Origin: an uncultured Oscillospiraceae bacterium
Lineage (GTDB): Bacteria; Bacillota; Clostridia; Oscillospirales; Oscillospiraceae
Assembly (NCBI GenBank): GCA_947629755.1
Contig: CANREY010000003.1
Span: 1-52,493, forward strand
DNA: 52,493 nt
Direction: 5' to 3'
Shown here one piece after another: positions 7,600-49,737 of this stretch. A model generated the notes under the pieces. It was not told the DNA's origin, made no database searches, and was given only the letters and a program-made list of their open reading frames with translations. Positions within the stretch are counted from its first letter, which is position 1. The number at the start of each line of letters is the position of its first letter. The position numbers were made by a program, and so were the translations under genes.

Positions 7600-7675
7600 C
7601 CCTTTTTATATCATATTAAACTACCAAAGAGCCGGAAAAGCAAGTATTAATTCAAATTGTCAAAAAACTCAAATT

Positions 7676-7752
7676 CAAATATTTTTCGCAAGGACATGCG
7701 CCTTGTGAAAAATACCTTTTGTCGGAAAAGGCCGCAGGCCTTTTTCGACAGG
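7676..7752. repeat. Intergenic modular palindromic repeat, copy B (short form)
   Basis: AATATTTTTCGCAAGGACATGCGCCTTGTGAAAAATACCTTTTGTC then GTCGGAAAAGGCCGCAGGCCTTTTTCGAC; near-identical ~45-nt start to the copy at 35680. Confidence 0.8.
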
Positions 7753-7760
7753 CTGAAGTA

Positions 7761-9086
7761 TTAATTCTCCCGCTCTCCCCGCTCCCGGATAATTATCCTT
7801 ATGGGCGTGCCCTCAAGGCCGAATACCGACCTTATCTGGTTTTCCAGGTACCGCTGATAGGAGAAATGAAAAAGCTCCGAGTCGTTGCAGAATATGACGA
7901 ACGTGGGCGGCCTTACGCTGACCTGGGTCATGTAGAATATCTTGAGCCTGCGCCCCTTGTCGCTGGGCGGCTGTACCCTCGCCTGAGCGTCGGCCAGAAC
8001 GTTATTGAGCTGTCCTGTGGTAATACGCCTGTTGGCCTGCTCGTTTACGGAATTGGCCAGAGCGAATATCCTGTCCACCCTCTGCCCCGTGAGAGCCGAG
8101 ACGAAAAGTATGGGCGCGTAGGGCATGAACGACAGGTCCCTTCTTATGTCCGCCTTCAGCTTGTCCATGGTCTTGCCGTCCTTCTCCACAAGGTCCCACT
8201 TGTTGACAAGTATGATACTGGCCCTTCCGGCCTCGTGGGCCATACCGGCCACCTTCGTGTCCTGCTCGGTGACGCCGTCTCTGGCGTCAATCATTATAAG
8301 GCACACGTCGCACCGCTCTATGGCCAGCTGTGCCCGCATTACGGAAAATTTCTCCACCCTGTCGTCAACTCTCGACTTCCGGCGCATACCGGCGGTGTCT
8401 ATGAGCACGTATTTTCCGAACTCGTTCTCAAAGGGCGTGTCCACCGCGTCACGGGTGGTCCCGGCCTCGTCGGAGACTATGACCCGCTCCTCCCCCAGTA
8501 TCCTGTTGACGATGGAGCTCTTGCCCACGTTGGGCTTGCCGATGAAGGCGAGCTTCACCGCGTCGCTGTCCGCCTCGTCCTCCTCGGCGGGGGGAAAATA
8601 CTTCATGCACTCGTCAAGAAGGTCCCCCGTCCCGTGGCCGTGGAGGGCCGACAGGGCTATGGGGTCCCCAAGTCCGAGGGCGTAGAACTCATAAATATCC
8701 GGGTTTACGGGCCCCACGGAGTCCATCTTGTTCACCGCCAGCACCACGGGCTTGCCGCTCCGCTTGAGCATATCCGCAACCTCCTGGTCCGCGGCGGTGA
8801 CGCCGGTGGATATGTCCCCCACGAACACGACGACGGTGGCCGTGTCTATGGCGATAAGGGCCTGCTCGCGCATGAAGGCCAGTATCTCGCTGTCGGCGGT
8901 AGGCTCTATCCCCCCGGTGTCGACTATGTCAAAGCTCCGCCCGGCCCACTCGCACTTGGCGTAGAGCCTGTCGCGGGTGACCCCCGGCGTGTCCTCCACT
9001 ATTGACAGCCTTGCCCCTGCAAGCTTATTGAATAAAAGGCTCTTGCCCACGTTGGGCCGGCCCACTATGGCAACTCGCGGTCTCAT
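7761..9086 (-). CDS. der: Ribosome biogenesis GTPase Der (EngA)
   Basis: Two GTPase domains: 'GRPNVGKSLLFNKL' and 'GKPNVGKSSIVNRI'. Confidence 0.97.
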   Translation of the reverse strand: MRPRVAIVGRPNVGKSLLFNKLAGARLSIVEDTPGVTRDRLYAKCEWAGRSFDIVDTGGIEPTADSEILAFMREQALIAIDTATVVVFVGDISTGVTAADQEVADMLKRSGKPVVLAVNKMDSVGPVNPDIYEFYALGLGDPIALSALHGHGTGDLLDECMKYFPPAEEDEADSDAVKLAFIGKPNVGKSSIVNRILGEERVIVSDEAGTTRDAVDTPFENEFGKYVLIDTAGMRRKSRVDDRVEKFSVMRAQLAIERCDVCLIMIDARDGVTEQDTKVAGMAHEAGRASIILVNKWDLVEKDGKTMDKLKADIRRDLSFMPYAPILFVSALTGQRVDRIFALANSVNEQANRRITTGQLNNVLADAQARVQPPSDKGRRLKIFYMTQVSVRPPTFVIFCNDSELFHFSYQRYLENQIRSVFGLEGTPIRIIIRERGEREN

Positions 9087-35605: not shown

Positions 35606-35679
35606 TCCACACCTCTTTCCCCTCGTCCTTGCGCGCTCTGATGTCCGCTGACAAGCTCCAACTAAGCGTACCCTAAATC

Positions 35680-35856
35680 AAATATTTTTCGCAAGGACAT
35701 GCGCCTTGCGAAAAATACCTTTTGTCACGCAAGTGTGCCGCTTGCGGCGCGCGCGGCGTGACGGCAGGAAAAATTTGCGAATAGGTCCGCAGACCTTTTC
35801 GCGAATTTTTCCGCACGTTCCCCTTTGTCAGCAAAGGCCCCATGGGCCTTTGCTGA
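35680..35856. repeat. Intergenic modular palindromic repeat, copy A (full form)
   Basis: Four nested hairpins: TTTTTCGCAAGG/CCTTGCGAAAAA; GTCACGC...GCGTGAC; GAAAAATT..AGGTCCGCAGACCT..AATTTTTC; TGTCAGCAAAGGCCC/GGGCCTTTGCTGACA. Confidence 0.85.
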
Positions 35857-35861
35857 CATTT

Positions 35862-35900
35862 AAAGCGGCCTGTTTCATTTTTTGAAACAGGCCGCTTTTA
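35862..35900 (-). terminator. Terminator of the HPr-like gene
   Basis: AAAGCGGCCTGTTTCA-tttttt-TGAAACAGGCCGCTTT, 16-bp stem just beyond the stop at 35914. Confidence 0.85.
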
Positions 35901-40055: not shown

Positions 40056-40166
40056 CGTACATCTTCTCTCATCCAGACTTTACTGTCGGTACCGGAATCA
40101 CACCGGTTCAGCTAAACGCTCGCGGACTTTCACCGCCGGTCGGGAATCTCACCCTGCCCTGAAGAC
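40056..40166 (-). ncRNA. FMN riboswitch (RFN element)
   Basis: Minus strand 'CTTCAGGGCAGGGTGAGATTCCCGACCGGCGGTGAAAGTCCGCGAGC...GAACCGGTGTGATTCCGGTACCGACAGTAAAGTCTGGATGAGAGAAGAT' matches the RFN consensus. Confidence 0.95.
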
Positions 40167-40287
40167 TTTCCGTTCAAGTTATAGTGCCATTATACGCCGG
40201 CGGCATTTGATTTGCAATACATATCAGCAATTTATTTTTCACCTTTACGTGAAATGACCAATTTCATCATTTGACCTGTGTATCATT

Positions 40288-43005: not shown

Positions 43006-43142
43006 CAAAAAATATCGGTTGGGGGTGGTATTCCACCCCCAACCTCTTGTAATCCGGGGAAAAAGCTGATACAATATATATTAAGGGCTGTATGGCCCGT
43101 GATGACAGACGTGAGAGTTTTTTACATACATAAGGTGAAGCT

Positions 43143-44249
43143 ATGAAAAAAATACTTTTAGTCTTCGGCACCCGCCCGGAGGCAATAAAGATGTGCCCGC
43201 TGGTAAATGAGCTCAAGTCCCGCCACGGCGTGGAGACCTTAGTGTGCGTCACCGGCCAGCACCGGGAGATGCTCCGGCAGGTGCTGGACGCCTTCGGTGT
43301 GGAGCCGGACTACGATCTGGAGGTCATGAGCCCCGGCCAGACGCTTTTTGACGTGACGGGCCGGGTCCTCACCGGCATGAAAAAGGTGCTGGAGGAGGTA
43401 AGACCCGACGTGGTGCTGGTCCACGGCGACACAACCACCACCTTCGCCTCGGCTCTGGCCTGCTTTTACCTCAATATCCCCGTGGGCCACGTGGAGGCCG
43501 GTCTTCGGACCTACAACGTCCGCGCCCCCTACCCGGAGGAATTTAACCGCCAGGCCGTGGGCTCCATAGCCGACTACAACTTCGCCCCCACCGCCCTGGC
43601 CCGCGACAACCTCCTCCGTGAGGGCAAGCTGCCCCAGTCCATCTACGTAACCGGCAACACGGCCATCGACGCCCTCGGCACCACGGTGGTCAGCGACTTT
43701 GAGCACCCGGAGCTCAGCTGGGCCCAAGGCTCCCGGCTCGTTATCCTCACCGCCCACCGGAGGGAGAATTGGGGCGAGCCCCTTCACCACATCTTCCGGG
43801 CCGTCCGGCGGGTGGTGGAGGAGTTTCCCGACGTGAAGGTCCTCTACCCTATCCACCTAAACCCCCTCGTCCGTCAGGCCGCCGAGGAGGAGCTGGCCGG
43901 TTGCGACAGGGTCCGGATAATCGAGCCGCTGGACGTGATAGCATTTCACAACTTCCTGGCCCGCTCCTACATGATACTCACCGACTCCGGCGGCATACAG
44001 GAGGAGGCCCCCAGCCTCGGAAAGCCGGTTTTGGTCCTCCGTGACGTGACGGAGCGCCCTGAGGGCGTGAAGGCCGGCACCCTTCGGGTAATCGGCACCC
44101 GCGAGGACGTCATCTACGACGAATTTCGTACCCTCCTCACCGACGAGAAGCGCTACAACGACATGTCCCGCGCCCAGAACCCCTACGGCGACGGCCTGGC
44201 CTCCCACCGGATAGCCGATATTCTCACCAAGGGCCGCACCACCGTGTGA
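43143..44249 (+). CDS. wecB: UDP-N-acetylglucosamine 2-epimerase (non-hydrolysing)
   Basis: 'FGTRPEAIKMCPLV', 'HGDTTTTFASALACFYLNIPVGHVEAGLRTYN', 'LTDSGGIQEEAPSLGKPVLVLRDVTERPE'. Confidence 0.95.
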   Translation: MKKILLVFGTRPEAIKMCPLVNELKSRHGVETLVCVTGQHREMLRQVLDAFGVEPDYDLEVMSPGQTLFDVTGRVLTGMKKVLEEVRPDVVLVHGDTTTTFASALACFYLNIPVGHVEAGLRTYNVRAPYPEEFNRQAVGSIADYNFAPTALARDNLLREGKLPQSIYVTGNTAIDALGTTVVSDFEHPELSWAQGSRLVILTAHRRENWGEPLHHIFRAVRRVVEEFPDVKVLYPIHLNPLVRQAAEEELAGCDRVRIIEPLDVIAFHNFLARSYMILTDSGGIQEEAPSLGKPVLVLRDVTERPEGVKAGTLRVIGTREDVIYDEFRTLLTDEKRYNDMSRAQNPYGDGLASHRIADILTKGRTTV

Positions 44250-47537: not shown

Positions 47538-47818
47538 TCAATATTTTTCGCAAGGACACGCGCCTTGCGAAAACCCCTCTTGTTTTGCGGAGTGTGCCAT
47601 GGGGCCCCCGGCGGGCTGTTGCCCGCTGGGGAGAGGAGGAGCGATGCCAGCGCCTGAGCCCGACCGCAGGGAGGGCGAGGTAAAGCGGCATCAGCGACGA
47701 CGAGGCCGTGCGCGGAGCAAAACGGCAGAAAAAAGTCACGAATAGGTCCGCAGACCTTTTCGTGACTTTTTTCGCACGTTCCCCCTTGATCACGAAGGCA
47801 AAGCCTTCGCGATCAAAA
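47538..47818. repeat. Intergenic modular palindromic repeat, copy C (full form with expanded inner domain)
   Basis: Same module order as copy A: TTTTTCGCAAGG../CCTTGCGAAAA; TTTTGC GGAGTGTGCC...GCGCGGA GCAAAA CGGCAG; GTCACGAATAGGTCCGCAGACCTTTTCGTGAC; CGCACGTTCCCCC; TTGATCACGAAGGC/GCCTTCGCGATCAA. Confidence 0.8.
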
Positions 47819-48988
47819 TGTATATATCCCGCAATTAATGCTCACCGTGTCCGGGTCCTCGTCCCCGTTCTCACCGTTTCCGTCCTCTCCTCCGATGTAG
47901 TACACGTTCTCGGACACCTCCCGGACGGCCTTGATCTGCTCAGCTTCGCAGAGGACCGCGTCGCAGTAATGTACGGCAAGGCCCGTCCTTATCTCCCCGT
48001 CGGTGAGCCTCCCGTCCAGCTTCACCGCGTCGCAGTCCAGCACCGTCACAAAGCCGTACCGTGACAGCATCGTCTTGTCCACGACCACCAGGTCCTGCCC
48101 TGATATGAGCTCTCCCCGGTAGGTGAACACGTCCTCGCACTCCGGCGCGAGCTTCAAAAAGCTCTCCTCCAGCTCCTCCGGTATCGCGGCTCTCCCCTCC
48201 ACATACAGGTACTCAAGCTTTGACAGAAGCTCCGCCTCCCGGCGCTCCACCGTCAATCCCCCGTCTATCCACAGCCTGTTTTCCCTTCTCAAAAGGCCCT
48301 TCGTCAGCGTCCTGTCGCCGCCCTTGTAGACCACGCCCTCCGGGACGACCGTAAGCTTCCCGTCACCCGAAAGCTCCAAAAGCTCCATGGCCTTCCGGGC
48401 GAGCCCTTCGGGCACGACCGCCTTTTCGCAGGCGAAGACCGCGCCGGACTTTATAAGAGCGTCCAGATCCGCCCCCTCGTCGATGATGACCGCGCGCTCC
48501 GTAAAGACCTTCTTCCCCGCCCAGCGAAGGCCGGAGACCTTGTCGAGCTTCACGTCGTCATCAGTAAGGACATACCCGTCGGGGTAGACAGTCTCGTTCC
48601 CCGTCACATGTACCCTGTTTGCCAAAGACCTTGGGCAGGTGACGCTCCCTATCCCATAAACGGCAGCGTAGCCGTCCAGCGTCTCACCCGCGCCCTCCCT
48701 GACCGTCAGGCTCCCCGTCACGATAAGCACCGTCGGCTCCTTCGGCGCCTCCCCCGGCTCGATGGTGAAGCTCCCGGTTTTTATCACCATCTTCACCCCT
48801 TCGGGCACGCTTATCACCGATCCCGTGTCGACCTTCACCCCGCTGTTCAGCAGTATCCTGTTGGACGCGGAAGTTACCGCCATGGCTCCGCAGTTTATCC
48901 TTATCCCGTCATACCCCACCAGCGTCTCCTCGGTGACGTTGGTGGCGTCGCAGAACCCGCAGTCTATTTTAAGCTGTTTTCTTCCCAT
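47813..48988 (-). CDS. Hypothetical beta-solenoid-like protein, partner of an ECF sigma gene
   Basis: 391 aa, repetitive short-strand pattern ('VITVPEGV'-like, 'IDGGLTVERREAELLSKLEYLYVEGRAAIPEEL'), no signal peptide or TM; 6 nt from the sigma stop. Confidence 0.7.
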   Translation of the reverse strand: MGRKQLKIDCGFCDATNVTEETLVGYDGIRINCGAMAVTSASNRILLNSGVKVDTGSVISVPEGVKMVIKTGSFTIEPGEAPKEPTVLIVTGSLTVREGAGETLDGYAAVYGIGSVTCPRSLANRVHVTGNETVYPDGYVLTDDDVKLDKVSGLRWAGKKVFTERAVIIDEGADLDALIKSGAVFACEKAVVPEGLARKAMELLELSGDGKLTVVPEGVVYKGGDRTLTKGLLRRENRLWIDGGLTVERREAELLSKLEYLYVEGRAAIPEELEESFLKLAPECEDVFTYRGELISGQDLVVVDKTMLSRYGFVTVLDCDAVKLDGRLTDGEIRTGLAVHYCDAVLCEAEQIKAVREVSENVYYIGGEDGNGENGDEDPDTVSINCGIYTF

Positions 48989-49558: not shown

Positions 49559-49564
49559 AAAAAG

Positions 49565-49737
49565 CATCGCAGATTTCGCGTCCGCAGACGCGAATAAGTT
49601 TCAATAATTTTTCCGGCGGCATGTACGTCGGAAAAATTCCCGCTCAGGTCCACGGAGTGTACGGGCTTCGCCCGTGCGCGGAGTGGACCGGCAAAATCTC
49701 TACTGGATTTGAAGGCCGGAACGGCCTTCAAATCCAA
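49565..49737. repeat. Intergenic modular palindromic repeat, copy D (variant)
   Basis: CGCGTCCGCAGACGCG; TTTTTCCG...CGGAAAAA; GGTCCAC GGAGTGT ACGGGC-ttc-GCCCGT GCGCGGA GTGGACC GGCAAAA; GGATTTGAAGGCC/GGCCTTCAAATCC. Confidence 0.65.

Follow-up and report, generated by a model that had tools for sequence, protein, structure and literature searches.

For the IS1182 family of insertion sequences, ISfinder lists variable direct repeats. BOX elements are intergenic repeats built of modules, the content of which varies and the secondary structure of which is conserved, and REP/BIME sequences with RAYT are palindromic intergenic repeats near the 3' ends of genes. We know of no terminator-duplicating insertion for BOX elements. 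Published treatments cover the BOX elements of Streptococcus pneumoniae (PMC3049150) and tagged REPs (PMC3733652). In staphylococci, the IS1182-family elements IS1272 and TnSha1 insert at stem-loops, many of them terminators; the stem-loop is lost and no duplication is formed (PMC4923244, PMC5678879). Duplication of the whole stem-loop appears in one of the two accounts as a possible outcome of the model when the ends join at the 5' feet (PMC5678879), and the available text of both holds no hairpin-array MITE (PMC4923244, PMC5678879).

The window analysed here, a stretch of 52,493 nucleotides from an uncultured Oscillospiraceae bacterium, carries four copies (A to D) of a repeat that resembles these systems in different respects. 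Like BOX elements it is modular, intergenic and structured, but its sequence, lineage and ends differ. With REP/BIME it shares palindromy and an intergenic position near gene 3' ends; unlike them, it has no Y1 transposase, has target duplications and contains several distinct hairpins with conserved internal motifs. It is short and non-coding with target duplications and terminal inverted repeats shared with an insertion sequence (IS), as in prokaryotic MITEs generally (review PMC10969869), whereas its interior is a multi-hairpin core that is conserved order-wide and under strong structural constraint. As for IS1272 and TnSha1, there is an IS1182-family DDE transposase and a stem-loop target, often a terminator, with no primary sequence consensus; the difference lies in the outcome, which for those elements is deletion or replacement of the stem-loop (PMC4923244, PMC5678879) and here is, repeatedly, its duplication as a whole. 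We conclude that the repeats very probably form a superfamily of MITEs, short transposons that are not autonomous, and that an IS1182-family DDE transposase moves them in trans.

The repeat family and its hairpin core

Using copy A as the blastn query against its home genome (2.2 Mb, 130 contigs), we obtained 59 matches at about 41 places, which hold full or partial copies. The repeat family proposed in the earlier note is real. A covariance model of hairpins 1 and 2, a kind of check suggested there, recovered all four window copies, with E-values of 5.9e-22 for A, 1.4e-15 for D, 1.6e-10 for B and 7e-4 for C, to be read with the fact that A and its relatives belonged to the training set. A weak match at 43114-43190 (E 0.05) could be a decayed copy or chance. 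Rfam 15 at gathering score left the repeat unmatched, the hits in other parts of the loci being to riboswitch, T-box and SRP families that are unrelated to it, which at those thresholds agrees with the earlier statement that this is not a named Rfam family; the window also holds an FMN riboswitch (RF00050) at 40057-40170 on the - strand. Viral contigs searched for the repeat pattern gave no match.

The reference copy A (35681..35858, + strand) comprises a four-hairpin core, placed by its covariance-model match and the 37-copy genomic alignment described below, with a predicted fold of -104.5 kcal/mol and a folding z-score against shuffles of -11.4 on the + strand and -9.9 on the other. Hairpin 1 (35683..35717, +), with stem TATTTTTCGCAAGG / CCTTGCGAAAAATA and loop ACATGCG, shows double changes in 6 of 13 pairs; in the family its stem base is AT-rich and its loop reads ACATGYG or GCATGTA. 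Hairpin 2 (35722..35764, +), the part of the copy that is conserved order-wide, has a variable outer stem followed by the internal motif CAAGTGTG...GCGCGCG, with U.G pairs on the + strand. The very variable stem of hairpin 3 (35767..35812, +), with a CGCA loop and a T.T mismatch, has double changes in 10 of 12 outer-stem pairs and falls into two sequence classes. Hairpin 4 (35826..35858, +) was placed from the alignment and pair statistics, and in copies bearing terminal inverted repeats its 3' arm runs into the right one. Alignment indicates that the left end of A (35640..35680, +) is eroded relative to CAGACTGTTGACAAACCCCAGCTAAGCGTACCCC in intact copies and that its target duplication is gone. 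Copy A adjoins a terminator hairpin recognised in the sequence (35863..35898), 3' of a small - strand gene (35915 onwards), and a search of A for a sigma-70-like promoter site found none.

Copy B (7653..7755, +), recognised from its sequence, the end-pattern search and the covariance model, is a shortened derivative that consists of hairpins 1 and 4 alone and retains both ends, CAAATTGTC...GACAGGCTG. The coordinates first given for the copies were confirmed, except that the interval for B was too short for the true element. Copy C (47540..47818, +; sequence and covariance model) has a GC-rich insert of ~110 nt inside hairpin 2 (about 47599-47705), and its hairpin 4 contains the stop codon of a - strand ORF at 47813-48988. 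The same segment, GGGGCCCCCGGCGGGCTGTTGCCCGCTGGGG...GCGGCATCAGCGACGACGA, also occurs in the hairpin 2 loop at four other loci (L018, L036, L193 and L201). Copy D (49560..49737, +), placed by the same two means, is a variant of the order type and has an additional 5' hairpin (stem 49575-49594) that is also present in other genera; hairpins 1 and 2 occupy 49603-49694, and the last hairpin (49705-49735) ends beside the stop codon of phosphofructokinase. All four copies belong to one family, as had been claimed, but the module order and listed motifs are not common to all, D being without AATAGGTCCGCAGACCTTTT and CGCACGTTCCCC.

To describe the covariation of the stems, 37 full home-genome copies were aligned over 197 columns, for which RNAalifold gave a consensus structure of 54 pairs. 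Standard pairing was found in 98.9% of the pair cells, and 27 of the 54 pairs had changes on both sides. The covariation score was 0.373 versus 0.152 in shuffled alignments, was reached in 0 of 500 shuffles and collapsed once partners were slid. Taken together, these outcomes mean that the covariation is real, and the co-varying stems read from the window alone are thereby borne out. Among 57 copies from several genera, the U.G pairs of hairpin 2 were present in 57 (columns 57-77) and 55 (columns 55-79), while 7 of 9 pairs in its outer stem changed on both sides. At orthologous loci (rplL and others), compensatory stem changes had occurred in place, within one and the same locus, part of which could be imitated by gene conversion between copies. 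Pair statistics, wobble pairs and in-situ compensation support the earlier proposal of selection on structure.

Pairs that are strand-neutral, being predicted from both strands, included 88 G.T and 33 A.C cells, an excess that favours folding of the + strand. As the sequences are related, the excess is suggestive and not a measure of significance.

Ends, target sites and an IS1182-family partner

Less eroded copies are non-coding, ~100-250 bp long and end in CAGNYTGTC...GACANNCTG. Left and right flanks were compared for 153 copies from the genus; in 37 of them the two sides were similar at a score unreached in ~1,500 mismatched pairings, and 38 of the 153 scored at least 12, against a null of 0.26%. 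In nearly all of the 37, the shared segment is a terminator-type hairpin, duplications in this comparison measuring 18-40 bp. Both ends were recognised in 24 copies, and in 21 of them a duplication (7-34 bp in this set) directly borders CAGNYTGTC at the left end and GACANNCTG at the right end; the null for such end-abutting duplications was 0 at a score of 6 or more and 0.9% at 5. The left inverted repeat is no longer seen in 104 of the 153 copies. Around copy B, an 11-bp target duplication, AAGTATTAATT, lies at 7642..7652 and 7756..7766 with the same boundaries but is not a hairpin, so hairpin targets are preferred, not obligatory.

At the locus L028 the site is empty in G017, the nearest relative, whose sequence there is 94% identical and contains a single terminator, AAAGCGGCGGCCCCGCAGGACCGCCGCTTT / ACAAAAGCGGCGGCCCCGCAGGACCGCCGCTTTC. 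In the home genome, the element lies between two copies of the G017-type terminator, of which the left is four bases short at its end. Species G001 acquired an insertion independently at the gene of L021, where its own terminator is duplicated; in several other species the terminator there is single.

In five cases (L037, L041, L062, L127, L266) the loops of the duplicated terminators are mutually reverse complementary, as if one hairpin had been flipped. Very short derivatives of about 40-60 bp were also seen (L197, L194, L203), with little beyond the two ends joined as one hairpin.

Searching the home genome for the end pattern led to an insertion sequence (L189) of 1,499 bp, whose inverted ends, CAGTCTGTCAAAAAACC / GGTTTTTTGACAGGCTG, are of the same kind as the repeat ends. 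Its transposase of 496 aa belongs to the IS1182 family (NF033551, E 2e-101, 340 bits against a cut-off of 270) and carries the Pfam domains DUF772 and DDE_Tnp_1. Its insertion site is again a terminator-type hairpin, GGGCGGGTTTGGAACCCGCCC, which stands on either side of the element, and a second IS end (L190) abuts hairpin 4 of one repeat copy. Four further complete IS copies in other species of the genus show whole-hairpin duplications of 23-31 bp, so that stem-loop targeting with whole-hairpin duplication is seen in 5 of 5 complete IS1182 copies of the genus. At >=88% identity, the IS occurs in 6 genomes, all with covariance-model matches, and is absent from the 12 genomes of the genus in which blastn had detected no copy of the repeat. 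Another genus (g28) has an IS1182-family element (L266) with the same kind of ends and target; outside the genus, many repeat-carrying genomes lack a detectable IS1182-family transposase.

The repeats thus show what defines MITEs: they are short and non-coding with terminal inverted repeats, have a target duplication and an empty site, and have an autonomous partner with the same ends. A match to a known MITE or IS end, which had been named in advance as counting against the original reading, was found for one part of the element. The ends match IS1182-family terminal inverted repeats, and the repeat is therefore transposon-borne, but the internal hairpin array is not part of the IS and remains unnamed. 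Shared ends, shared target and co-occurrence point to mobilisation of the repeat by the IS1182 transposase; for most copies, which are without the left inverted repeat, this would hold by extension only. In the proposed mechanism, the transposase would join the element at the two feet of an extruded stem-loop, and gap repair would then copy the hairpin, leaving a terminator on either side. With the hairpin copied, termination would be left intact, and insertion would therefore be nearly harmless.

Two other routes were considered and rejected. IS30 was dismissed as the mobiliser as IS30-family ends (GTGTTGCACTTGA...) differ from those of the repeat, and a SINE-like origin by reverse transcription, considered because the duplication length varies, was dropped since the IS1182 partner has the same ends and duplication mode. 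IS30-family elements (L065, about 1250-2355, and L066) do adjoin two copies (L030 and L038), lying at the same position directly left of hairpin 1 in copies with different hairpin types, which suggests that the IS30-family element has a site preference for the repeat.

Copies at stop codons and competing explanations

According to crude heuristic ORF calls, from which all gene orientations and stop distances given here derive, copies with a terminator duplication are mostly separated from the adjoining gene's stop codon by 32-84 nt, which places them past a terminator. In about 40-50 of the 97 copies without the left inverted repeat, the same calls put hairpin 4 at a distance of 0-9 nt from the stop codon. 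The element is kept between species in three orthologous sets (rplL and two others). We infer that stop-abutting copies are old and retained for a role at the 3' end of the adjoining gene; they may have another route of origin.

It is possible, if on balance doubtful, that the array is instead a host-encoded 3'-UTR or terminator-like regulatory RNA family, captured by the transposon-like copies, which would then be a minority. Hairpin 4 starts ~-3 to 9 nt from the stop codon in roughly half of the copies without inverted repeats, and the orthologous copies are about as conserved as the gene, with left flanks that diverge more in several. The in-place compensatory changes at these copies also speak for it, together with an orientation bias in which the adjoining 3' gene is antisense to the + strand in 111 cases versus 28 (49 versus 17 for tandem genes). 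However, terminator-duplicating insertion is shown at many loci in several genera, the set of occupied loci varies between species, and the + strand, on which G.U pairs are tolerated, is for the most part antisense to the adjoining gene. The covariation, for its part, might arise from template-switch (quasipalindrome) correction, by which hairpins would stay perfect in the absence of selection, and the inverted loops in some terminator duplicates mean that hairpin flipping does occur here. We disfavour this explanation as improbable: correction of this kind would erase mismatches, yet the U.G pairs of hairpin 2 are invariant or nearly so, the T.T mismatch of hairpin 3 is retained, G.T cells outnumber A.C cells, and loops and linkers are conserved as well. 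Many-copy intergenic palindromes would also be expected of REP/BIME-type repeats mobilised by a Y1 (RAYT) transposase, but this is scarcely credible and not supported. The REP-type transposase that the earlier note had suggested looking for did not turn up, as the genome gave no match to Y1_Tnp (PF01797), with a control search positive in 5 of 14 known genomes; to our knowledge, REPs are not characterised by target duplications or by inverted terminal repeats.

Returning to the IS1182-mobilised MITE, our best guess is that its hairpin core is a structured passenger with a one-strand fold that is tolerated and sometimes kept as a 3'-end structure at stop codons. The array would act as a folded single strand, the + strand, in which G.U pairs are tolerated, and old stop-abutting copies would be kept as 3'-end structures of the adjoining gene. 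We consider it unlikely that the transposon carries the core as a functional RNA or ssDNA, such as a structured transcript or strand to which the IS1182 transposase or a host protein binds and which mobilisation, or the choice of terminator hairpins, requires; if true, the core would be a structured nucleic-acid partner of a DDE transposase.

Distribution and significance

The covariance model of hairpins 1 and 2 had matches in 31 of 34 genomes of the genus, with up to 128 per genome where 128 candidates were scored. Antisense hairpin echoes inflate match counts, and the 83 matches in the home genome are therefore an upper estimate. Across the order, 29 of 297 genomes had matches, in 17 of 148 sampled genera from several families. 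The carriers are gut bacteria of one order with tens to over a hundred copies each; among them are rabbit-gut Oscillospiraceae MAGs, Evtepia gabavorous and Candidatus Evtepia faecigallinarum. An additional 5' hairpin, which contains the motif GCCTCGCAGAGTTT, is present in order-type copies, and whole-hairpin duplications were found in 6 of 30 of these that were examined, a count that excludes an apparent duplication at L239 as an artefact.

MITEs and hairpin-targeting IS1182 elements are already known kinds. What is apparently new is the repeat superfamily, its order-wide conserved hairpin core with invariant one-strand G.U pairs and the replicated whole-hairpin duplication; a literature search, partial in coverage and weak as evidence, returned no description of it. 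A widespread repeat of gut Oscillospirales is thereby named and tied to its likely mobilising enzyme. Whole-stem-loop duplication by an IS1182-family element, which the available accounts held only as a model, gains natural, replicated evidence and an empty site, and the insertions show a way in which terminators can be entered by a transposon and yet not be destroyed. The finding also raises the question of why a MITE should, throughout an order, keep an RNA-like structure in which wobble pairs are invariant.
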